Below, in pieces: positions 17,066-27,025 of a stretch of DNA of 32,221 bases (within the stretch, counting starts at the first letter, position 1; every line of letters starts with the position of its first letter). The position numbers were made by a program, and so were the translations under genes. The DNA comes from Deltaproteobacteria bacterium (GTDB lineage: Bacteria > Desulfobacterota > Desulfobacteria > Desulfobacterales > Desulfosarcinaceae): the NCBI GenBank assembly GCA_020444075.1, contig JAHLLR010000057.1, positions 1 to 32,221 of the forward strand, read 5' to 3'. The notes below the pieces were generated by a model. It did not search any database, was not told where the DNA came from, and worked only from the letters and a program-made list of their open reading frames with translations.

Positions 17066-18481
17066 TCATGGTTTGAAATCCTCTTTTCGCAGGCCGAGGC
17101 GCTTCATCTTGTTGTAAAGCCCACGGGTGTGGATCCCAGCGATCCGGGCTGCCTGGTTGACGCGGCCCCCGGTTTTGGACAGGGCGCGTTCGAGGTACAT
17201 TCGTTCCACCTGGTCCAGGACTTCCTGCTGGACTTCCGGAAGGGTTTTGCTCAGGAGCCCTTCTGTTCCCAGCAGGTTTTCCGGTAAAAACCTTCCCATA
17301 TCGGCGGCATCGCCATGGAAGACGTTGGGCAGTTCCGTCATGCCGATCTCATGGTTGCGGCACAGCAGCATGGCCCGTTCGATGACATTCATCAATTCGC
17401 GCACGTTTCCCGGCCAATCATAGCTGCACAGGGCGTTGAGTGCCCGTTCGGAAAAGCCGCTTATTTCCCGACCGATCTTGTAGCGGAACAGGGTCGTAAA
17501 CCGCCGCACCATCGTGGGGATATCTTCCTTGCGGTGGCGAAGGGGCGGTATCGTCAGCATCAAAACGCTCAGGCGGTAGTAAAGGTCCTGCCGGAAAGAT
17601 CCCTGGGCGGCAGCCGCTTCCAGGTCCCTGTTGGTGGCGGCGATCACCCGCACATCCAACTCGATGATGTTCTCACCTCCCAAGGGTTTTACTTCATAAT
17701 CCTGAAGTACGCGAAGCAGTTTGGTTTGAAGATGCAGCGGCATTTCACCAATTTCATCCAGGAATATGGTTCCGCCGTGGGCCAGTTCAAAGGCCCCGCG
17801 GCGATAGCGGACCGCACCGGTAAATGCTCCCTGCTCATGGCCGAAAAGTTCGCTTTCGAGAAGATTTTCGGGCATGGCCGCCATGTTGATCGATATAAAG
17901 GGGCCGATGGACCGTGGGCTCTGTGCGTGGATGGCTTTGGCCAGGTGTTCTTTGCCCACACCGGTTTCACCCGTGAGCAGAATGGGGGAGTCGCTGGGGA
18001 TGACCTGATTGACCTCTTCGATAAAGACCTGCATGGCCTGACTTTCCATGACAAAGTCCGAAAGCTTCGGTTCGACGATGCCCCGTCGGTCAAAGCGTTT
18101 GCGTTGGATGAACTGGCGCCGCGATTCCAGTGCCGAATCGATGGCCTCGTAAATGCTGGTTTTGGACAAACCCGAATAGAGCACGACATCCGCTCCGGCG
18201 GCGGCAAGCTGGGCATGCTCCTCCAGCGAGGCACTGCCGTGAAGGATGATCGTCGTGGGGCTTTCCGGCAGTTCGTTGAGAATGGCGATGCCGTTGTCGA
18301 CCGGACGAAGAACGAAGGCTTCGCTGATGACGATGACATCTATCCCGCTGTGCAAGGCATTCTGCCATACCGATCGCGGCGGACCGAAAACCTCGACCCG
18401 CACATCGGGGGCCGACAGTTTTTTTGCCAGATATCCCTGCAGGCGAGCGTCCTTAATGGCTAATCCCACTCGGATAAGCAT
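17066..18481 (-). CDS. Sigma-54 activator with degenerate receiver domain
   Basis: This 471-residue regulator has three parts. Residues 1-120 have the receiver fold pattern but lack both the acidic pair after strand 1 and the phospho-accepting Asp (the strand reads DVIVISEAF), so it is a pseudo-receiver. Residues about 145-370 are the AAA+ domain with Walker A GETGVGKE, the sigma-54 contact loop EQGAFTGAV, Walker B GGTIFLDEIGE and the arginine finger region LRHRKEDIP. The C-terminus is a Fis-type HTH (GGRVNQAARIAGIHTRGLYNKMKRLGL). It should hydrolyse ATP to open sigma-54 promoters. The start at 18481 has GGAG 8 bases upstream; an in-frame ATG at 18550 is possible. The strong sigma-54 promoter at 18982 nearby is its likely target. 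Confidence 0.9.
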   Translation of the reverse strand: MLIRVGLAIKDARLQGYLAKKLSAPDVRVEVFGPPRSVWQNALHSGIDVIVISEAFVLRPVDNGIAILNELPESPTTIILHGSASLEEHAQLAAAGADVVLYSGLSKTSIYEAIDSALESRRQFIQRKRFDRRGIVEPKLSDFVMESQAMQVFIEEVNQVIPSDSPILLTGETGVGKEHLAKAIHAQSPRSIGPFISINMAAMPENLLESELFGHEQGAFTGAVRYRRGAFELAHGGTIFLDEIGEMPLHLQTKLLRVLQDYEVKPLGGENIIELDVRVIAATNRDLEAAAAQGSFRQDLYYRLSVLMLTIPPLRHRKEDIPTMVRRFTTLFRYKIGREISGFSERALNALCSYDWPGNVRELMNVIERAMLLCRNHEIGMTELPNVFHGDAADMGRFLPENLLGTEGLLSKTLPEVQQEVLDQVERMYLERALSKTGGRVNQAARIAGIHTRGLYNKMKRLGLRKEDFKP

Positions 18482-18548
18482 GCGCGAATCTCCATCATGA
18501 CGGTATTGGGGTACGGATTCGGGTAAAACACCATTATTGGTTGGTCCC

Positions 18549-18600
18549 ATGAGCCAATTTCAAAACGCCCCATTTTGGCCAATATCGGCGTTGGGCTCAT
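18549..18600. promoter_or_regulatory. Nested inverted repeat upstream of the sigma-54 activator
   Basis: ATGAGCC (18549-18555) and GGCTCAT (18594-18600) form the outer arms, and AACGCC (18564-18569) with GGCGTT (18587-18592) the inner arms. On the minus strand, 18581-18567 reads TGGCCAAAATGGGGC, which keeps the GG-N10-GC spacing of a sigma-54 promoter but matches poorly elsewhere. It could be an activator site or the activator's own promoter. Low certainty. Confidence 0.35.
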
Positions 18601-18981: not shown

Positions 18982-18997
18982 TGGCACGCTCTGTGCT
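18982..18997 (+). promoter_or_regulatory. Sigma-54 (-24/-12) promoter
   Basis: The sequence TGGCACGCTCTGTGCT matches the RpoN consensus TGGCACG-N4-TTGCA with the exact 4-base spacer; only one or two bases differ and GG (-24) and GC (-12) are intact. Transcription should start near 19008, ahead of the small charged protein at 19061. The 18601-18981 stretch upstream is AT-rich, as expected for bending and activator sites, but I see no clear IHF site. Confidence 0.85.
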
Positions 18998-19060
18998 GAC
19001 AGTAAAACGGTTTGGGATTTGAAAATGTTGATTAACTCTGATGAAGGAAATGGTGTTGCA

Positions 19061-19252
19061 ATGACCAGGCAGGAAGACGACGAACGCTATGAAAACGGGA
19101 AAGACACGCCGCTCAGGCGCCCCCAGCGGACCAAATTCAGGGAGTTCGACGAGGATGAGAATGAGACTGCACTCAGGGAAAAGCGTTCCAGCAAACGTTC
19201 ACATCGCCGGAAAACGGGCAAAGATGATGTCTGGCCCGATGCCGGCGATTGA
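19061..19252 (+). CDS. Small highly charged protein, first gene of the sigma-54 operon
   Basis: From the ATG at 19061 this is a 63-residue protein with 17 Lys/Arg and 17 Asp/Glu, no Cys, and almost no hydrophobic core, so it is probably disordered. Its C-terminus is acidic with a Trp (DDVWPDAGD). AAGGA lies about 12 bases upstream. In-frame starts at 19025 (ATG) or 19019 (TTG) would add about 12-14 residues. It is the first gene after the -24/-12 promoter and is followed 45 bp later by a GNAT, an ATP-grasp ligase, a PLP decarboxylase and a cysteine peptidase. It could be a carrier protein to which amino acids are attached (compare LysW, a small protein with an acidic Trp-containing C-terminus), a precursor peptide, or a small regulator. 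I do not recognise a family. Confidence 0.6.
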   Translation: MTRQEDDERYENGKDTPLRRPQRTKFREFDEDENETALREKRSSKRSHRRKTGKDDVWPDAGD

Positions 19253-19297
19253 ACCGGCACCCCGACCAATCGACCTTTTTCAATAGGAGTGCGCCCC

Positions 19298-20269
19298 ATG
19301 ATTGACGTCAGCGTCAGCAGCGATCCGGAAGAAATCCAACGGCTGTGGCAGCGGCACTGGCCCCAAACGTGCCTATTCGATCTGTGGCCGGTGAGAGCCT
19401 GCTTCCAGAGACGGTTTCAACACACCCCTCATTTTCTTGTTGCCGAAAGGCAGGGGGCATTTTGCGGGTTGCTGGCGCTCAGTTGGATCGATGAAGAGCA
19501 GTATTTCGGGCATTTTCCGGGCGAATTGTGGCATGGCAAGACCTGGCTGGAGCAGAACCGCGTCCTCGTTGCGGATGAACACGTTTTCGATGCTCTGTGG
19601 GAGGCGGTTCCCGATGTGGCCCAGATTCGTTATCTGCGTCCGGATGGCTATCTGCCGGAGGGTGCATCGGTCACCATGGACGAAATCGGTTATCTTTTCC
19701 GGCCGCCCCAGTATGGGTACGATTTCAAGATGTATATGGAGCAATTCTCGGGTAAATCGAGAAAAAAGATTCGCTGTGAGATCGACCGGCTTCAAAGGCG
19801 GGGCGTATCCTTCCGCTACGATTGCCTGGCAGATGTCGACCATTTATTCAGCCTGAATCTGGAGATCTTTCGCGAAGATTCCTATTTCAGCGATCCACGT
19901 TTTCTGGGCGCATTCGAGGACCTCGTCCAATGGCTGCACCGCCATAACCTGCTGCGCGTTACCGCGGTGCTCGTCGGTGGCGAGCTGGCCGCGGTGGATA
20001 TCGGTGCGGTCTGGAACGGCACCTATACGGTGGTGGCAGGAGGAACCTGCGGCGATTTTCCCGGGGTTGCCAAGCTGATCAATTTCCACCACCTGGAATG
20101 GGCCTGCCAGCAGCATCTGCGTGCAGTGGATTTCCTGTGCGGCGAGTTCAACTGGAAGAACCGGTTCCACCTGACGCCTCGCCCGCTGTATAAAATGTCC
20201 AAACTCATTGCCATTGACGGTGCACAGACACCGGCTTATGCATCGGACCTGATCTGTGCCACCGGCTGA
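19298..20269 (+). CDS. FemAB/BioF2-like GNAT-fold acyl- or aminoacyltransferase
   Basis: The chain has 323 residues. The C-terminal half (about 150-310) fits the GNAT-fold BioF2-like/FemAB type: FSGKSRKKIRCEIDRLQRRG, then a segment (FLGAFEDLVQWLHRHNLLRVTAVLVGGELAAVDIGAVWNGTYTVVAGGT) with the usual strand pattern, and LINFHHLEWACQQHLRAVDFLCGEFNWKNRF near the end. Relatives use acyl-CoA or aminoacyl-tRNA donors; which one applies is not visible. The N-terminal half is a second, weaker GNAT-like region. AGGAG lies 8 bases before the ATG at 19298, so I prefer it over the GTG at 19289. It is the second gene of the sigma-54 operon and overlaps the ATP-grasp gene by 14 bases. Confidence 0.72.
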   Translation: MIDVSVSSDPEEIQRLWQRHWPQTCLFDLWPVRACFQRRFQHTPHFLVAERQGAFCGLLALSWIDEEQYFGHFPGELWHGKTWLEQNRVLVADEHVFDALWEAVPDVAQIRYLRPDGYLPEGASVTMDEIGYLFRPPQYGYDFKMYMEQFSGKSRKKIRCEIDRLQRRGVSFRYDCLADVDHLFSLNLEIFREDSYFSDPRFLGAFEDLVQWLHRHNLLRVTAVLVGGELAAVDIGAVWNGTYTVVAGGTCGDFPGVAKLINFHHLEWACQQHLRAVDFLCGEFNWKNRFHLTPRPLYKMSKLIAIDGAQTPAYASDLICATG

Positions 20270-21521
20270 TCCCAGGGTCCTGGTTGTCGGCACCACTGCG
20301 GACTACATCGAATGGATTCGGACGTGCCGTTCGGGACAGGCTCTTTTCCTGACCGATCCCGTTGTACGGCGTGAGGCGGATGAACCGACGCCGTCGCCGG
20401 ATGAAGAGATCCTGTGTGACCTGGCCGATGAACCCCGTGTCTTCGAGGCGCTGGCGCGCCACCTGGATGAATGGCGCATCGAGCTGGCCGGGGTGGTCTG
20501 CTACGATTGCGAATCGATGACCCTTGCCGCCCGTCTGGCCGAAGCATACCATCTGCCTTACCCCAGCGTGCAGGCGGTCAACAACTGCCGCGACAAGTAC
20601 CGCTCCAGAATGCTCTGGAGGAAGCATCAGCTCCATACGCCCGACGTCCGAAGGGTCGAATCGGCGGGCGAGGCCGTCCAGTTTTTCCGGGAAACGGGCG
20701 GACCCTGCGTGTTGAAGCCTGTCAGCGGCAGCGGCAGCGAACTCATTTTCAGGTGCGACAGCGAGGCGGACTGTGAGCGGTATTACCGGCGCATCGTCCA
20801 GGGGCTGGCGCAACGTCTGAATCACCGCCTGTACCAACCTTTCGCGATGTCCGGCGCCGACATTCTGGCAGAGGCGTATGTCGGCGGTGAAGAATACAGT
20901 TGTGATTTCGTGCTGGAAGACAATCGTGTGACCCTGATCCGTCTGACCCGCAAGGTTTTTTTCGCCCAGGATCCTTTCGGAACGGCCAAAGCCTACATCC
21001 TGCCGGGTGTCTGGCCCGACGCCATCGATGCCGGCGAACTGGAGCGGACGCTGGTCCGGAGCGCCGGGGCTTTGGGAATTCAGCGGGCCGTCTGTATGCT
21101 GGACTTCATCGTTCATAACGGGAAGATGGTATTGCTGGAGATGGCTCCCCGGCCCGGTGGCGACTGCCTGCCCTTCCTGGTGCGCCAGTGCTACCAGGTG
21201 GATGTGCTGCAGCTGGTTCTGGATTTCTCCCGACGAAAACCGCTGGCATTGAATCCTCCGGCCAACCATCGGCCGATGGTCGGGCTGCGGCTGCATGCCG
21301 CCCGGGAGGGCACGCTGGTGAGCCTTGACACCCGCGAGCTGAGACGCGATTCCCGCGTGCAGGAGATCCACCTGATCCGCAAACCGGGCCATCGCATAAA
21401 ACGGCCCCCGGAAGACTACGATGCCTGGCTGCTGGGGCATGTCATTTTTGTACCCGAGGATGATGAGGTTTCCGGCCAGTGCCGGGATCTTTGCGATAAA
21501 CTGGCGATCAAGGTTGCGTGA
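20256..21521 (+). CDS. ATP-grasp ligase
   Basis: This 421-residue protein is an ATP-grasp enzyme, a family that joins a carboxylate to an amine or other nucleophile through an acyl-phosphate. Typical blocks are the N-terminal pre-ATP domain (VLVVGTTADYIEWIRTC; CYDCESMTLAARLAEAYHLPYPSVQAVNNCRDKYR), the ATP-binding lysine in CVLKPVSGSGSELIF, the ligand block AEAYVGGEEYSCDFVL, and the Mg-binding LLEMAPRPGGDCLPFL. It most resembles the carbamoyl-phosphate-synthase-L / ATP-grasp_4 group that ligates amino acids. GTG at 20256 overlaps the GNAT gene end by 14 bases. The substrate is unknown. In this operon the most natural job is to attach an amino acid to the small protein or to build a dipeptide-like metabolite. 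Confidence 0.85.
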   Translation: MPPADPRVLVVGTTADYIEWIRTCRSGQALFLTDPVVRREADEPTPSPDEEILCDLADEPRVFEALARHLDEWRIELAGVVCYDCESMTLAARLAEAYHLPYPSVQAVNNCRDKYRSRMLWRKHQLHTPDVRRVESAGEAVQFFRETGGPCVLKPVSGSGSELIFRCDSEADCERYYRRIVQGLAQRLNHRLYQPFAMSGADILAEAYVGGEEYSCDFVLEDNRVTLIRLTRKVFFAQDPFGTAKAYILPGVWPDAIDAGELERTLVRSAGALGIQRAVCMLDFIVHNGKMVLLEMAPRPGGDCLPFLVRQCYQVDVLQLVLDFSRRKPLALNPPANHRPMVGLRLHAAREGTLVSLDTRELRRDSRVQEIHLIRKPGHRIKRPPEDYDAWLLGHVIFVPEDDEVSGQCRDLCDKLAIKVA

Positions 21522-21527
21522 GACGTT

Positions 21528-22832
21528 ATGGGCATGGATCCCTATGAATGGCTGCCGATGGTAAAGGCGAAAATGGCCGGCACCTCTCCGTTGCTGGCTC
21601 CAGAACAGCTGCAGTCCTTTGTCAGCTATTATTTTGACCGGCGCGACATCTATCTTGACGTTCTCAAGACGCACCCGGCGCCGCTTTATCTCCAGGAATC
21701 CTCGGTATTAAGGGCCAGGGCCGCCCGGATGAAGCGGGCTTTCGAATATCTACTGCCCGAGGTGGCATTTTATTTTGCGGTAAAAAGCAACAACCACCCC
21801 CATGTGGCCAGTGTCCTGATCGACGAGGGGTTCGGATTGGATGTCTCCAGCGGACAGGAACTGGAGTCCGCTCTTTTTCTGGGCGCTCCGGATATCGTAT
21901 TCAGCGGGCCGGGCAAGACCCCCCAGGAATTGCGTCTGGCGGTTTCTCATGCCGAGCGCGTGGTGATTCTGATGGACAGCTTCGGCGAACTGGAACGCCT
22001 GGGGCCGCTGGCCGCCGAAATGGACACCACGATTCGCTGCGGGGTGCGATTGACCGTAAACCCGACAGGTCTATGGCGCAAATTCGGCATTCCCATGACT
22101 GATCTGCCGGCATTTATAGACGCCGTCCGGCAACATCCCCGAGTGCACCTGGCAGGACTCCAGTTTCACACCAGTTGGAACCTTTCGCCAGCGCCTCAGA
22201 TCGCCTTTATCCGTGAACTGGGCGAGATGCTGGCGGCCCTGCCGGCGGAGGCGAGAGGACCGATTGAATTTATCGATATCGGCGGGGGATACTGGCCGGA
22301 ACAGGGAGAGTGGCTTCAGGCGGCAGGAACGCCGGAGGGAAGGCTGCGCGATGCCCTGGACCTGCCGGCCGGAGGCGTCGACGCCCATTTCCATCTGCCG
22401 TCGACGCCCATCGAAGGCTTTGCCGACGCACTGAGCGGGGCTATTCGCACGCACCTGCTGTCGTCCGTTTCCTGCCGGATCTGCCTGGAGCCCGGCCGCT
22501 GGATATGCAACGACGCCTTACAGCTGCTGCTTTCGGTGGTCGATAAAAAGGCGCCGGACCTGGTGATCACCGATGCCGGCACCAACGCGATCGGATGGGA
22601 GCGGTTCGAGACCGACTATTTCCCGGTGCTGAACCTGACCCGTCCGTCGCTGGTGGAAAAACCGTGCCATATCCTCGGATCACTGTGCACCCCGCACGAC
22701 GTATGGGGCTACACCTATTTCGGCACGGACATCCAGCCGGGCGATATTCTGATGATCCCCACCCAGGGTGCCTATACCTACAGCCTGAGACAAACCTTCA
22801 TTAAACCCTTGCCGTGTGTTATTACTCTCTGA
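21528..22832 (+). CDS. Fold-type III PLP-dependent decarboxylase
   Basis: The protein (434 residues) belongs to the ornithine/diaminopimelate-decarboxylase group. The N-terminal barrel has the Schiff-base lysine Lys86 in FYFAVKSNNHP, the glycine-rich phosphate-binding block FIDIGGGYWPEQG, and the substrate-binding EPGRW. The C-terminal barrel has Cys387 and Asp391 in LCTPHDVWG, the CxxxD catalytic motif, and the closing TQGAYTYSL. It is more distant from LysA and SpeF than ordinary orthologs, so it may act on a tethered or unusual amino acid. It starts 6 bases after the ATP-grasp stop, so it is co-translated. Butirosin-type pathways also pair an ATP-grasp ligase with such a decarboxylase on a carrier protein; that parallel is inference. 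Confidence 0.87.
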   Translation: MGMDPYEWLPMVKAKMAGTSPLLAPEQLQSFVSYYFDRRDIYLDVLKTHPAPLYLQESSVLRARAARMKRAFEYLLPEVAFYFAVKSNNHPHVASVLIDEGFGLDVSSGQELESALFLGAPDIVFSGPGKTPQELRLAVSHAERVVILMDSFGELERLGPLAAEMDTTIRCGVRLTVNPTGLWRKFGIPMTDLPAFIDAVRQHPRVHLAGLQFHTSWNLSPAPQIAFIRELGEMLAALPAEARGPIEFIDIGGGYWPEQGEWLQAAGTPEGRLRDALDLPAGGVDAHFHLPSTPIEGFADALSGAIRTHLLSSVSCRICLEPGRWICNDALQLLLSVVDKKAPDLVITDAGTNAIGWERFETDYFPVLNLTRPSLVEKPCHILGSLCTPHDVWGYTYFGTDIQPGDILMIPTQGAYTYSLRQTFIKPLPCVITL

Positions 22833-22871
22833 AAGCCATTTGGTTAAAAACATACTAATTTATAGGCATAT

Positions 22872-23588
22872 ATGACGACGGCCCTTCACTTCGATATCCG
22901 CCCCCAGCCGGACAACACCACCTGCGGGCCCACATGCCTGCATGCCGTTTACCGGTATTTCGAAGACCCGATAGCCCTGTCGCGGGTCATTGCCGAAGTG
23001 CCCACGCTGGAAGGGGGCGGCACCCTGTCCGTCTATCTGGCCAGCCACGCCCTGCGCCGTGGATACCGGACCACCATTATCCCCTACAACCTGCAGATTT
23101 TCGACCCGACCTGGTCCGCTATCCCTCCGGGAGACATCGCCGGGAAACTTCGACGGCAGGGTGCCATTAAACGGGGCCTGCCGGGATTCGAACGGGTTAC
23201 GGAGGCTTACCTGGAATATCTTCGCCTCGGCGGCCGTCTGACGTTTGAGGTGCTGACGGCCGGACTGATCCGGAAATATCTCAAACGCGGCATCCCGGTC
23301 ATGACCGGTCTGAGCGCCACCTACCTATACAACTCGGCCCGGGAATACGATCTTGACGGGCGGGTGGTTTACGATGATGTCCGCGGCGAATCCGTCGGCC
23401 ACTTCGTCGTCCTGGCCGGCTACAATCGGGAAACCCGGCGCGCCCGGGTGGCCGATCCGTTTCTGCCGAATCCCATGGCGGACGGGCAGCACTATTCCGT
23501 CGATATCGATCGTCTGGTGTGCGCCATTTTGCTCGGTATCCTGACCGATGACGGCGACCTGCTGATCATCCAGCCGAAACGGAGGTAA
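22872..23588 (+). CDS. C39-like cysteine peptidase or transferase
   Basis: This 238-residue protein has the papain-like C39 pattern. The nucleophile is Cys18 in QPDNTTCGPTCLHAVYRYF, the His is probably His177 in GHFVVLAGYN, and the third residue Asp195 in VADPF. C39 peptidases trim leader peptides at double-Gly motifs, and related folds act as acyl transferases that move amino acids from carrier proteins. No double-Gly motif is obvious in the small protein at 19061. No signal peptide is present, so it acts in the cytoplasm. It follows the decarboxylase by 39 bases and is the last clear member of the operon. Substrate and direction of action (cleavage or transfer) are unknown. Confidence 0.78.
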   Translation: MTTALHFDIRPQPDNTTCGPTCLHAVYRYFEDPIALSRVIAEVPTLEGGGTLSVYLASHALRRGYRTTIIPYNLQIFDPTWSAIPPGDIAGKLRRQGAIKRGLPGFERVTEAYLEYLRLGGRLTFEVLTAGLIRKYLKRGIPVMTGLSATYLYNSAREYDLDGRVVYDDVRGESVGHFVVLAGYNRETRRARVADPFLPNPMADGQHYSVDIDRLVCAILLGILTDDGDLLIIQPKRR

Positions 23589-23727: not shown

Positions 23728-25302
23728 ATGCACATCACGTTTTACGGGGCGGTGAGGGAAGTGACCGGATCGATGCACCTGTTGAGTACGGACCATGATC
23801 GCATTCTGCTGGACTGCGGCATGTATCAGGGGCGGCGGAAAACCGCGGCCGAAAAGAACCGGGTGCTGCCTTTCGATCCGGGCCTTATCACCAACATGGT
23901 GCTGTCCCACGCCCACATCGACCATTCCGGTCGTATCCCCCTGATAACCAGAAATGGCTTCAACGGACGGATATACTGTACCCGGGCGACGGTCGATGCC
24001 TGCGGCTACCTGCTTCCGGATTCGGCCCACATCCAGGAGAGCGATGCCGAATACCTGAACTACAAGACGGTCCGTTCCGCCCTGTCCCAGATGCGGCCCG
24101 GCGAAGACGGCCAAACCTCCAAACGCGATCTTCAGGAGATCAAACGGCTGCTGAAGAAAGACAAGCACGGGCTAAACGCCGAGGTGATCAGCGATTACAT
24201 CAAACGCTTCCACCTGGAAGGGGTGGAACCGCTTTACACCACCACCGACGCGGACCATGCCCTCAAGTCCTTCGAAGGCATTCCCTATCGCAGCCCGGTG
24301 ACCATCGGCAAAAAGATTTCCTGCACCCTTTTCGAGGCCGGCCATATTCTAGGCTCCGCCATCGCCATGATCCGCTACGGTGACAACGGCAACTCCCGCA
24401 CCGTCTGCTTTTCGGGAGATATCGGCCGCTACGGCAAGCCCATATTGCGCGATCCGGCCAGTCAATTCGACGGGCTCGGCCGTGACGTGGACCTGATGAT
24501 CATGGAAAGCACTTACGGCAACCGGGACCACGAGCCGGTGATCGATCTGCGCCCCCGGCTGAAACAAGTTCTCAACGAAACCTTCGACCAGGGAGGCACG
24601 GTGCTCATCCCATCCTTTGCCTACGGCCGGACCCAGGAACTGCTCTACGTGATTCACGAGCTTTACGATGCCGGTGAAGTGCCGCGCATGCCGGTATACG
24701 TGGACAGTCCCCTGGCCACCAATATCACCAAGGTGTTCGGCGAGCATCCGGAAGTCTACGACAGGGAAACCCACGAAACCTTCCTGCAGCAGGGCAAGAA
24801 TCCATTTGCCTTCCGGCAGGTGCAGTTTACCGAGAGCGTCGAGGCATCCATGGCGCTCATGCGCGAGGAAAAACCCCACATCGTCATCTCCGCGTCGGGC
24901 ATGTGCGAGGCCGGGCGCATCCTTCATCACCTTCGCTACAAGATCCACAACCCCAAAAACACGATTCTCATCGTGGGCTACATGGCCAACCATACATTGG
25001 GCAGGCGCATCCTCGAGCAGGGAACGGCCTACGAGGAATCGGGCCGCAAGGGGGAGCCACCCATCGTCAAAATCCTCAACAAGGAGTATCCGCTGAAGGC
25101 GCGGGTGGTCAAGATCGGCGGGTTTTCCGCCCATGGGGACCGCAACGAGATGCTCCGGTTTCTCAAACAGTCCAACCTGACCATCAAGCGGATAGCCGTG
25201 GTTCACGGCGAAGAGGATCAGAGCCTGGCTTTTGCCGATCTTCTGAAGACCGAGGGTTTCGACGCGGTGGTGCCCCGGGTGGGGGAAACCCTCACCATCT
25301 GA
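23728..25302 (+). CDS. Beta-CASP metallo-beta-lactamase, RNase-like
   Basis: The 524-residue protein is a metallo-beta-lactamase with beta-CASP and RMMBL parts, a family that includes RNA-processing nucleases of the CPSF/Ysh1 and RNase J types. The zinc motif is HAHIDH (His61, His63, Asp65, His66); later metal ligands are in FEAGHILGSA and FSGDIG. Beta-CASP motifs follow (STYGNRDHE, IPSFAYGRTQELLYVI, ASGMCEAGRILHHL), and the C-terminal FSAHGDRNEML closes the set. An RNA endo- or exonuclease role is likely. The gene may be on its own or read through from the sigma-54 operon; the 139-base gap makes separate expression more likely. Confidence 0.9.
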   Translation: MHITFYGAVREVTGSMHLLSTDHDRILLDCGMYQGRRKTAAEKNRVLPFDPGLITNMVLSHAHIDHSGRIPLITRNGFNGRIYCTRATVDACGYLLPDSAHIQESDAEYLNYKTVRSALSQMRPGEDGQTSKRDLQEIKRLLKKDKHGLNAEVISDYIKRFHLEGVEPLYTTTDADHALKSFEGIPYRSPVTIGKKISCTLFEAGHILGSAIAMIRYGDNGNSRTVCFSGDIGRYGKPILRDPASQFDGLGRDVDLMIMESTYGNRDHEPVIDLRPRLKQVLNETFDQGGTVLIPSFAYGRTQELLYVIHELYDAGEVPRMPVYVDSPLATNITKVFGEHPEVYDRETHETFLQQGKNPFAFRQVQFTESVEASMALMREEKPHIVISASGMCEAGRILHHLRYKIHNPKNTILIVGYMANHTLGRRILEQGTAYEESGRKGEPPIVKILNKEYPLKARVVKIGGFSAHGDRNEMLRFLKQSNLTIKRIAVVHGEEDQSLAFADLLKTEGFDAVVPRVGETLTI

Positions 25303-25324: not shown

Positions 25325-26245
25325 TTATGCTGCCGTTCCTCTGAGCAGATGGTGGGAACACAGGGTCACCAGGCACCAGATCGCCGGTGAAGCGAGGACG
25401 CTTTCGATGGAGCGGTCGAACAGGATCGAGATTCGAGGGGGGAATTCGTCGTTTCCCTGCCAGAGCAGGTAGTAGACCGGTATCCGCGGAAACGGGTTGA
25501 GCCTGATTGCCGCATCCCCCATCTGCTCAATCCGGCCGCCGAGGTGCCGGCCGGCGGTGGTAAACCCGTTGGAGTCCTCGCTGTAGCGCGTCAGCAGCGC
25601 CGCTGTCCTCAGCCGGTTTCGGCCCGAAAAGTAGGCGGCGTCCGCCAGATCTTCCGCACCCACCATCTCCCGGCCCAGGGGGTGGAGATGGTTTACCCGG
25701 TTAAGATAGTCGAGGACCGTCAACTCCAGCAGCGGCAGCACCAGCTTTTCCCACCCCTTCGCCCGCTTTTCCATCAGGCATCGCCTGCGGGTGTCAACGA
25801 GAATCTGGCGGTTGAGAAATCGAAACCGCAGGTGACCCGAGCCGGCATCGATATCGGTCAGGGTGAAGTTGGCTACCTGGCCGATATCCCGATCCGCCAA
25901 GACATCCCACCAGGAGGGATCGATTTCGATACGCCTGCCCGATGGATCGACAGCCGGGGGGCCCTGGCTCCGCCGGCGCTGCTGCATATCCAGAAACCCC
26001 TTGCCATAGGGGTAGTTCGAACCGGTGAAATTGTCGCAGGGAAATGACGGGCAGTCCCTGGGGCAGTAATCAATATGATTAAGCCGGGCGCATTCCAAAA
26101 TGGAGCAGGGATGACCGAATGCGCGCTTCTGGGCGGCGCTCTTTCCGGCGGCCAGGTCGCTTCGGCCCGGCCCGCAGGAGGAGCACTGTCCCAGCAGATT
26201 GAGCTGACATACGTCACAGTTGATGCCGCAGGCGCCGGTGGCCAT
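25325..26245 (-). CDS. DUF3786 protein with Cys-rich N-terminus
   Basis: The protein has 306 residues. The first 75 residues contain ten Cys (CGINCDVC, CSSC, HPC, LEC, YCPRDCPSFPC), which suggests one or more metal or Fe-S sites. The C-terminal 190 residues match DUF3786 proteins, including the ending block PVYYLLWQGNDEFPPRISILFDRSIE. DUF3786 proteins are common in anaerobes that handle corrinoids and C1 metabolism, but the function is not known. It follows the SDR gene by 21 bases on the same strand, so they may be co-transcribed. The gene converges on the beta-CASP gene with only 22 bases between. Confidence 0.8.
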   Translation of the reverse strand: MATGACGINCDVCQLNLLGQCSSCGPGRSDLAAGKSAAQKRAFGHPCSILECARLNHIDYCPRDCPSFPCDNFTGSNYPYGKGFLDMQQRRRSQGPPAVDPSGRRIEIDPSWWDVLADRDIGQVANFTLTDIDAGSGHLRFRFLNRQILVDTRRRCLMEKRAKGWEKLVLPLLELTVLDYLNRVNHLHPLGREMVGAEDLADAAYFSGRNRLRTAALLTRYSEDSNGFTTAGRHLGGRIEQMGDAAIRLNPFPRIPVYYLLWQGNDEFPPRISILFDRSIESVLASPAIWCLVTLCSHHLLRGTAA

Positions 26246-26266: not shown

Positions 26267-27025
26267 TCAGCCTTCCATTTCCCTGAGATCGTATCGCCTG
26301 CCGTTTTCTAACCGTCCATCCATGAACAGGCGGATCAGGGCCGTTGCCGTACGCTCGGGCGGATAGAGCGCGCCATTGGCTTTCAGTTTGAGGAATTTGT
26401 CTACCTGCTCAAACTGATCGGGACTGCAGTTGCGAATTTTCTCTTGCATGGCGGTGTCCACGGTCCCCGGTGCCACGGCGCAGATGCCGAATGTCGGATC
26501 GATGCGGGAGAACTCCATGGCCATGGCACGGGTGGCCATGTCCAGTCCGGCTTTGGCGGCCCCGTAGGCCGACCATCCGTAGTAAGGTGTCCGACTGGCC
26601 CCGGAGGTAATATTGACGATCCATTTGTGGCCGGGAAACGGCTTGCTGAAATGGAAAAAATGCCGGGTCAGGATCAGCGGCGCCGTCAGGTTGACCTGGA
26701 TATTTCGGGCCAGCAGTTTGTCATCGCAGTCGCCGATGGGAGCTATGGGATCAAGGACGCCGGCGTTGTTGATCAGCACCGTCCGGGCCAGCCGGCCGGC
26801 CTGCTTCAGGTTGATAGGGATGCTTTTGAAAGACTCGGCGATGCGGTCGGTATCGTTCAGGTCGATGCGGATATTCTGATGGTTCCCCCGGATAAAAGGG
26901 GCCGCCCGCGACAGGCTGACCACGAAGCTGTTGGGCTGCAGCAATGCCGATGCCACTAAGGCCCTGCCGATGCCCCGGGTGGTCCCGGTGATGAGAAAAA
27001 GATGTTCAAACGGCGGCACATCCAT
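26267..27025 (-). CDS. SDR-family NAD(P)-dependent oxidoreductase
   Basis: This 252-residue protein is a short-chain dehydrogenase/reductase. The cofactor motif is TGTTRGIG (Thr13-Gly20), NNAG appears as LINNAGV, the catalytic Ser is in NITSGASR, and the Tyr-Lys pair is in YGAAKAG. The pattern is close to sepiapterin/benzil reductase-like SDRs (YueD type), but substrate cannot be assigned. An upstream HTH/zinc-ribbon gene and a phosphatase gene lie on the same strand (gap 86 bases), and DUF3786 follows downstream. Confidence 0.9.
   Translation of the reverse strand: MDVPPFEHLFLITGTTRGIGRALVASALLQPNSFVVSLSRAAPFIRGNHQNIRIDLNDTDRIAESFKSIPINLKQAGRLARTVLINNAGVLDPIAPIGDCDDKLLARNIQVNLTAPLILTRHFFHFSKPFPGHKWIVNITSGASRTPYYGWSAYGAAKAGLDMATRAMAMEFSRIDPTFGICAVAPGTVDTAMQEKIRNCSPDQFEQVDKFLKLKANGALYPPERTATALIRLFMDGRLENGRRYDLREMEG

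Follow-up and report, generated by a model that had tools for sequence, protein, structure and literature searches.

The predicted operon and its promoter

The window analysed here, i.e., the whole 32,221-nucleotide stretch of contig JAHLLR010000057.1 from a Deltaproteobacteria bacterium of the Desulfosarcinaceae (assembly GCA_020444075.1), is an entire contig (G000:C76) of a 5.6-Mb genome in 173 contigs. It carries five co-directional genes located 3' of a near-consensus sigma-54 site and, divergent to them, a gene for a sigma-54 activator (Table 1). The five genes encode a small highly charged protein, a GNAT-family transferase, an ATP-grasp ligase, a pyridoxal 5'-phosphate (PLP)-dependent decarboxylase, and a C39-like protein. 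The ATP-grasp frame overlaps the GNAT frame by 14 bases, while 6 bases separate ATP-grasp from decarboxylase and 39 bases separate the decarboxylase from the C39-like gene. Apart from slight corrections of gene starts, the promoter and the five genes are as first described in the initial annotation of this stretch. The promoter TGGCACGCTCTGTGCT is the sole match to TGGCACGN5TGCW in the window, for 0.03 matches expected from shuffled sequences.

Table 1. Features of the putative operon, with positions numbered from the first nucleotide of the window
Feature	Position	Strand	Evidence
Divergent sigma-54-dependent activator: NtrC-like AAA+, Fis-type helix-turn-helix (HTH), receiver-like N-terminus	17066-18550	-	Pfam Sigma54_activat E 3e-69, HTH_8
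-24/-12 promoter TGGCACGCTCTGTGCT	18982-18997	+	TGGCACGN5TGCW match
Small highly charged protein, 63 amino acids, accessory	19061-19252	+	Start placed by alignment to two close homologues
Tandem-GNAT, predicted FemX-like aminoacyltransferase, core	19298-20269	+	Pfam Acetyltransf_6 E 3e-23
ATP-grasp, L-amino-acid-ligase type, core	20256-21521, start uncertain	+	Pfam ATP-grasp_4 E 5e-14
Alanine-racemase-fold PLP decarboxylase of the LysA/FigC/BtrK kind, core	21528-22832	+	Pfam Orn_Arg_deC_N E 2e-24
C39-like papain-fold protein, accessory	22872-23588	+	Pfam Peptidase_C39_2 E 3e-8

A four-gene cassette and its distribution

Related loci were collected with the GNAT alignment as query against named genomes, and the 80 best of the 137 relatives obtained were kept. 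After removal of duplicates, 94 distinct loci were available, 24 from the window and related genomes and 70 from the GNAT-alignment scan. Since these 70 loci were found by GNAT alone, the other three genes discussed below were not selected for there, and SpeD was never used as a selecting query. Completeness was scored on the 75 loci having at least 1.2 kb before and at least 3.2 kb after the GNAT gene. A SpeD-like gene stands together on one strand with the GNAT, ATP-grasp, and decarboxylase genes in 63 of these 75 loci, while only the SpeD-like gene is absent in seven (the window, L029, L030, L032, L033, L039, whose GNAT includes a masked stretch, and L054) and more than this gene is absent in five. 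Hence, the enzyme block of FemAB-like GNAT, ATP-grasp ligase, and BtrK-like decarboxylase recognized by the initial annotation is conserved as one unit, whereas the five genes that it had grouped are not: the conserved unit has four genes, including the SpeD-like gene that is absent from the window. Moreover, GNAT, ATP-grasp, and decarboxylase have correlated pairwise distances (r 0.78-0.85 over 78-80 loci), and those of SpeD correlate with the other three enzymes (r 0.56-0.67), label shuffles giving at most 0.25 in both cases.

This enzyme set is conserved in many mostly uncultured anaerobes. Fifteen of the 63 full cassettes have record titles outside Desulfobacterota. Among the best 80 of 137 GNAT relatives, 24 titles fall outside Desulfobacterota, "Deltaproteobacteria", and "Proteobacteria bacterium" (Nitrospirae, Planctomycetota, Sumerlaeota, Zixibacteriota and GN15, Lentisphaerae, Verrucomicrobia, Armatimonadota, Krumholzibacteriota, Synergistaceae, one alphaproteobacterial bin, and two candidate genera), and 5 more are titled merely "bacterium". 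With the own genome counted, 16 of 116 relatives have the decarboxylase (E 1e-60), 11 of 297 genomes of the phylum have the ATP-grasp (E 1e-40), and 14 of 395 genomes have the GNAT (E 1e-30), each of these 14 with a best match of at least 428 bits, so that the GNAT forms a sharply bounded family. Cultured carriers exist by record title (Desulfogranum marinum, Desulfospira joergensenii, Desulfosarcina alkanivorans, Dethiosulfatarculus sandiegensis, and Desulfamplus magnetovallimortis), and the product can thus be sought directly. Cassette genes and regulators aside, no gene family is seen in over 11 of the 94 neighbourhoods; as no transporter or carrier gene constantly adjoins, the product could be a metabolite of general use rather than a strain-specific one. 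Searches of plasmid and phage collections with the GNAT at E 1e-5 gave no match in either. Two chromosomes carry two cassettes each, L112 with L124 (CP070689.1) and L114 with L120 (CP070682.1); L124 is devoid of the decarboxylase and L067 of the ATP-grasp.

The regulatory region is conserved in part. A divergent activator homologue is found in 51 of the 79 loci having more than 3 kb upstream. When -24/-12 sites were scored out of 15 and counted at 11.5 or above, with the reverse strand as control, activator-linked loci had such a site in 52 of 53 cases (10 of 53 on the reverse strand) and loci without activator in 9 of 33 (6 on the reverse strand). A co-directional gene that looks TetR-like by eye replaces the activator in 22 loci. 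The sigma-54 control of the enzyme block proposed from the window alone is thus borne out, as a sequence-based prediction, in the window and in related genomes. The receiver-like N-terminus of the activator is seemingly devoid of the phospho-acceptor Asp; an Asp stands at the presumed column in 1 of 53 homologues.

Cassette enzymes and a candidate pathway

We propose that the operon of the window is a SpeD-less variant of an undescribed cassette whose small product is a decarboxylated aminoacyl or peptidyl amine, in most cases assembled on putrescine, a reading for which we consider the chances to be about even. In the full cassette, a pyruvoyl L-ornithine decarboxylase of SpeDC type would form putrescine, the FemX-like GNAT would move an amino acid from an aminoacyl-tRNA onto the amine, the ATP-grasp ligase would form a second amide bond, and the FigC/BtrK-like PLP decarboxylase would remove the alpha-carboxyl from the attached amino acid. 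In the lineage of the window, SpeDC would have been lost, putrescine or another amine being supplied by the remaining metabolism, and sigma-54 with the divergent activator would turn the operon on. Gene order, conservation, families and folds, catalytic residues, and promoter are observed; we infer every substrate, the sequence in which the enzymes act, the involvement of tRNA, and both the product and its role.

In most loci, the SpeD-like gene is a small gene between promoter and GNAT whose product matches Pfam AdoMet_dc (E 8e-22 and 6e-24 in two examples). The pyruvoyl-processing and catalytic Ser, His, and Cys occur at the Thermotoga maritima spacing in all 79 SpeD-like proteins, and so does each residue of a Gln, Thr, Phe, and Tyr set (79/79 each, with positions assigned by residue order and by the Desulfotignum fusion domain described below). 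These four residues are reported as diagnostic of SpeDC-type L-ornithine decarboxylases in the consulted excerpts of Li et al. (PMC10407285). The Desulfotignum bin G403 encodes a SpeD-SpeDC fusion adjoining speE, as does the tested SpeD-SpeDC fusion of D. phosphitoxidans in the same excerpts (PMC10407285). The second domain of the G403 protein is 52-57% identical to five cassette proteins, compared to 17-26% to the other SpeD types considered, and it nests among cassette SpeD-like proteins with a local support of 0.94 in a tree from which the tested sequence itself is absent. Because of the diagnostic residues and of this nesting, the cassette SpeD-like gene most likely makes putrescine as a pyruvoyl L-ornithine decarboxylase. 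The PDB sequence search with the SpeD-like alignment gave no match at E 0.001, and the SpeD-like protein matched 10 phage records, all below 60% identity.

The genome of the window holds no close copy of the cassette SpeD-like gene. Among the six SpeD-less cassette genomes, four gave no AdoMet_dc match (G008, G083, G079, and G409), while the genome of the window (G000) and G039 have one canonical-looking SpeD each, lying elsewhere than the cassette in the former. In a combined tree, the SpeD-bearing L031 and L064 are interspersed among the SpeD-less loci close to the window, some nodes there having weak supports (0.55-0.59). This mixing suggests more than one event, and the SpeDC gene was probably lost more than once in the lineage of the window. 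Such a loss in some genomes fits a gene that merely supplies a common metabolite. The background of arginine decarboxylase is uninformative, SpeA exceeding its cut-off in 5 of the 22 cassette genomes.

The AlphaFold model of the GNAT has a mean predicted local distance difference test score (pLDDT) of 90.6. Among solved folds, it comes closest to Sba18/Sbb17 (Z 18.5/18.2) and FemX (Z 18.2) over 262-274 residues, followed by FemA (Z 16.8), MprF (Z ~15), and acetyl-coenzyme A (acetyl-CoA) enzymes (14.5 for 5kf1 and 13.6 for MshD). By sequence, the GNAT alignment gave no match in the PDB at E 0.1 and chance rows only when relaxed to E 10. A Trp-Lys pair is invariant (93/93). FemX and DhpH have a Phe-Lys with a catalytic Lys (FemX Lys305 and DhpH Lys329) according to excerpts of a recent report (PMC12945691), and we infer that the Trp-Lys pair is its equivalent, as matched by motif and not by alignment. 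It is rather unlikely, in our view, that the GNAT of the same cassette uses acyl-CoA or an acylated acyl carrier protein to give an N-acylated, lipid-like amino acid or polyamine amide. Acetyltransf_6 is indeed a broad GNAT family and the acetyl-CoA tandem GNATs share the fold (Z 13.6-14.5), but the aminoacyl-tRNA enzymes stand ~4 Z units above the named acetyl-CoA enzymes, and the invariant pair lies at the presumed FemX/DhpH position. Given that the closest folds include FemX, FemA, and MprF, the enzymes could instead act on a macromolecule (lipid, protein, or cell-wall precursor) as FemX and MprF do, releasing no free small molecule. We regard this as improbable: Sba18/Sbb17, whose structures were solved with streptothrisamine, a small molecule, are among the top fold matches, and a pair of decarboxylases with free or acylated amino acids as substrates would better suit small-molecule work.

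The proposed aminoacyl or peptidyl amine is also consistent with the ATP-grasp protein, which matched 3vot in the PDB by phmmer (E 4e-15) and whose model (pLDDT 92.7) is closest to the L-amino-acid ligases 3vot (Z 36.6), RizA (32.9), and YwfE (30.6). The K, E, R, and D columns, which include the active-site Lys, Glu, and Arg, are kept in 81/81 sequences. The LAL_C2 domain is under the Pfam cut-off (25.1 versus 29.4 bits), and the protein scores below all NCBIfam cut-offs, reaching 30.4 of 275.6 bits for LysX. In L118 (8326-10944), ATP-grasp and decarboxylase are fused with a linker in one 873-codon frame, which suggests consecutive steps, an assembly error being possible.

The decarboxylase matched LysA (2yxx, E 1e-26), FslC/FigC (7kh2, E 4e-21), and BtrK (2j66, E 4e-20) in the PDB, and it scores 134 bits for a LysA NCBIfam cut-off of 297.9 (TIGR01048). 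Under the NCBIfam cut-offs applied (LysA and NspC for the decarboxylase), neither this enzyme nor the ATP-grasp appears to be an orthologue of a known free-standing enzyme. The PLP Lys, His, GGG, and EPGR are invariant (80/80), and the catalytic Cys is present in 78 of 80, with 2 gaps, next to a Thr in the same proportion. A His occupies the FigC H357 position in 74 of 80 and a Trp aligns with a LysA Arg in 79 of 80. The enzyme thus has neither the acidic residue beside the catalytic Cys nor the diaminopimelate-binding Arg, as in FigC, SbnH, and BtrK, whose substrates are acylated amino acids and which are changed at the LysA substrate positions, as described in PMC7857480. From these columns, it appears to have lost the LysA substrate residues like FigC and BtrK. 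The Glu, Arg, and Asp that follow the Trp are invariant or nearly so and would suit, as a guess, a substrate with a charged far end.

We give hardly any weight to an alternative in which the cassette would be a second housekeeping route to spermidine and its decarboxylase a carboxyspermidine decarboxylase (NspC). SpeDC genes elsewhere sit with spermidine-pathway genes in the excerpts of PMC10407285, and 4 of 22 cassette genomes (G008, G079, G098, and G409) have no SpeE above 140 bits, SpeD-SpeE fusion, or NspC, making a spermidine link possible there. However, the decarboxylase of the window is unmatched by the NspC model TIGR01047 at E 0.01, and those cassette decarboxylases that do match stay at or below 31.5 bits, for a cut-off of 409. 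Moreover, 17 of the 22 genomes have a SpeE above 140 bits or an NspC over the cut-off elsewhere and one more has a SpeD-SpeE fusion, while the ATP-grasp ligase and the GNAT have no place in a spermidine route.

Several observations weigh against the pathway that we propose. L098 and L099 have GNAT, regulator, and promoter but none of SpeD, ATP-grasp, and decarboxylase in the vicinity, and L091 carries SpeD and GNAT alone. Seven cassettes are without SpeD, so that another acceptor than putrescine may be used in some. Most loci come from metagenome bins, hence single taxon labels may be wrong. Shared descent of the hosts alone can give correlated distances, and it contributes here. The FemX-like fold of the modelled GNAT is no proof of aminoacyl-tRNA use, and the best-scoring relatives of the decarboxylase are LysA enzymes, its placement with FigC resting on residues and not on a tree. 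The Desulfobacula-type loci L098, L099, and L091, which have regulator and sigma-54 site along with the GNAT and are devoid of ATP-grasp and decarboxylase, perhaps reflect a split or cut-down pathway.

No description of the cassette was found in searches that covered an open-access library. The closest known systems are partial parallels: in rhizoferrin synthesis by FigA/FigC and in its putrescine-using counterpart, a synthetase is likewise paired with an alanine-racemase-fold decarboxylase acting on an acylated amino acid, in variants with and without free putrescine, though with an NIS synthetase and citrate (excerpts of PMC7857480). The cassette instead combines an ATP-grasp of L-amino-acid-ligase type with a FemX-like GNAT and, in most loci, a pyruvoyl ornithine decarboxylase. 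For the butirosin side chain (BtrJ/BtrK/BtrI), an ATP-grasp enzyme is followed by a BtrK-type decarboxylase, which shares the catalytic loop CTPxD with that of the cassette. The LysW/LysX system combines a zinc-ribbon carrier with an acidic tail and LysX, unlike the ATP-grasp and the Cys-free small protein of the window. BtrK acts on an acyl carrier protein (PMC7857480), whereas no carrier protein family recurs in the cassette loci. SpeDC pyruvoyl L-ornithine decarboxylases, with which the SpeD-like gene of the full cassette probably groups, are described in PMC10407285, and none of the SpeDC genes in the consulted excerpts occurs with GNAT, ATP-grasp, and FigC-like genes.

The window proteins are far under the cut-offs of the XrtA/PEP-CTERM models TIGR03019 and TIGR03099 (21.6 of 260 and 95.8 of 478 bits). 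In those systems, a FemAB-like protein and a BtrK-like decarboxylase co-occur. To our knowledge, no SpeDC or FigC-like decarboxylase takes part in the Orf11/Sba18/Sbb17, VlmA, DhpH, or PacB pathways. These aminoacyl-tRNA-dependent enzymes resemble the cassette GNAT in having a GNAT fold and serving a small-molecule pathway (excerpts of PMC12945691).

If our model is right, polyamine metabolism would be joined to aminoacyl-tRNA and ligase chemistry, and SpeDC enzymes would gain a use outside spermidine making. Tentatively, tRNA-derived decarboxylated aminoacyl or peptidyl polyamines could even constitute a new widespread class, present in ten or so phyla with a common unsuspected role. It is a somewhat doubtful extension that this class would be made throughout by a fixed team of pyruvoyl ornithine decarboxylase, FemX-like transferase, L-amino-acid ligase, and FigC-like decarboxylase under sigma-54 or other regulators.

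Accessory and neighbouring genes

The small charged protein and the C39-like gene both look accessory. The frame and length of the former are kept in two relatives (L029 and L054), with a ratio of nonsynonymous to synonymous substitution rates (dN/dS, NG86) of ~0.38 versus L029 and of 0.11 versus L054, where dS is near saturation; a third pair yielded no dS. Judged from these alignments, the small frame is a real gene. It was found in 11 of 94 loci, of which 7 seeded its model and one, L081 from a Sumerlaeota bin, is a short weak match. The conservation at protein level expected by the initial annotation thus exists in relatives and extends to few loci. Among 116 relatives, the protein occurs at 6 cassettes and, outside the cassette, at three strong places and one weak place. 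The copies off the cassette (G000:C7:39690-39875, G003:C1:954126-954311, and G005:C1:3438168-3438350) lie in unrelated neighbourhoods, end alike (KRSxKRSHRxKTxKDDxWPD), and have no sigma-54-like site above 10/15 in the 400 bases upstream. G003 and G005, which belong to the same genus as the window, have this protein yet no decarboxylase match. The small protein could therefore be a conserved orphan of its own.

It contains no Cys, no LysW-like tail, and no double glycine. A role as carrier of the growing molecule, in the manner of BtrI or LysW, or as precursor had been suggested by the initial annotation, and its position in the operon and its conservation as a protein in the closest relatives, together with the LysW-like small protein upstream in L047, would be in keeping with a carrier. 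We consider this very improbable. Without Cys pairs or LysW-like tail the role has no support; moreover, the gene is present in 11 loci only, G000, G003, and G005 have off-cassette copies that are not preceded by a sigma-54-like site above 10/15, and no family outside the cassette and its regulators recurs in over 11 neighbourhoods. Carrier and precursor were both rejected on the distribution, the off-cassette copies, and the lack of Cys and double glycine. In L047, the zinc-ribbon protein with its acidic tail is encoded upstream of the SpeD-like gene, and L042 and L085 have other zinc-ribbon small proteins at this place.

A C39-like homologue occurs in 10 of 94 loci, at varied positions, and its TTCGPTC and GHFVVLAGYN motifs are almost unchanged in 4 aligned sequences. 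C39 double-glycine processing of the small protein was discarded, as the latter has no such motif and the two genes co-occur in 3 loci only, i.e., in 3 of the 10 C39 loci. A defence-system role was rejected as well, the PADLOC models for anti-phage defence matching none of 6 proteins at E 0.001. Next to the operon lie genes for a beta-CASP nuclease (23728-25302), a DUF3786 protein (25325-26245), and an SDR protein (26267-27025), and their order is identical in D. alkanivorans.

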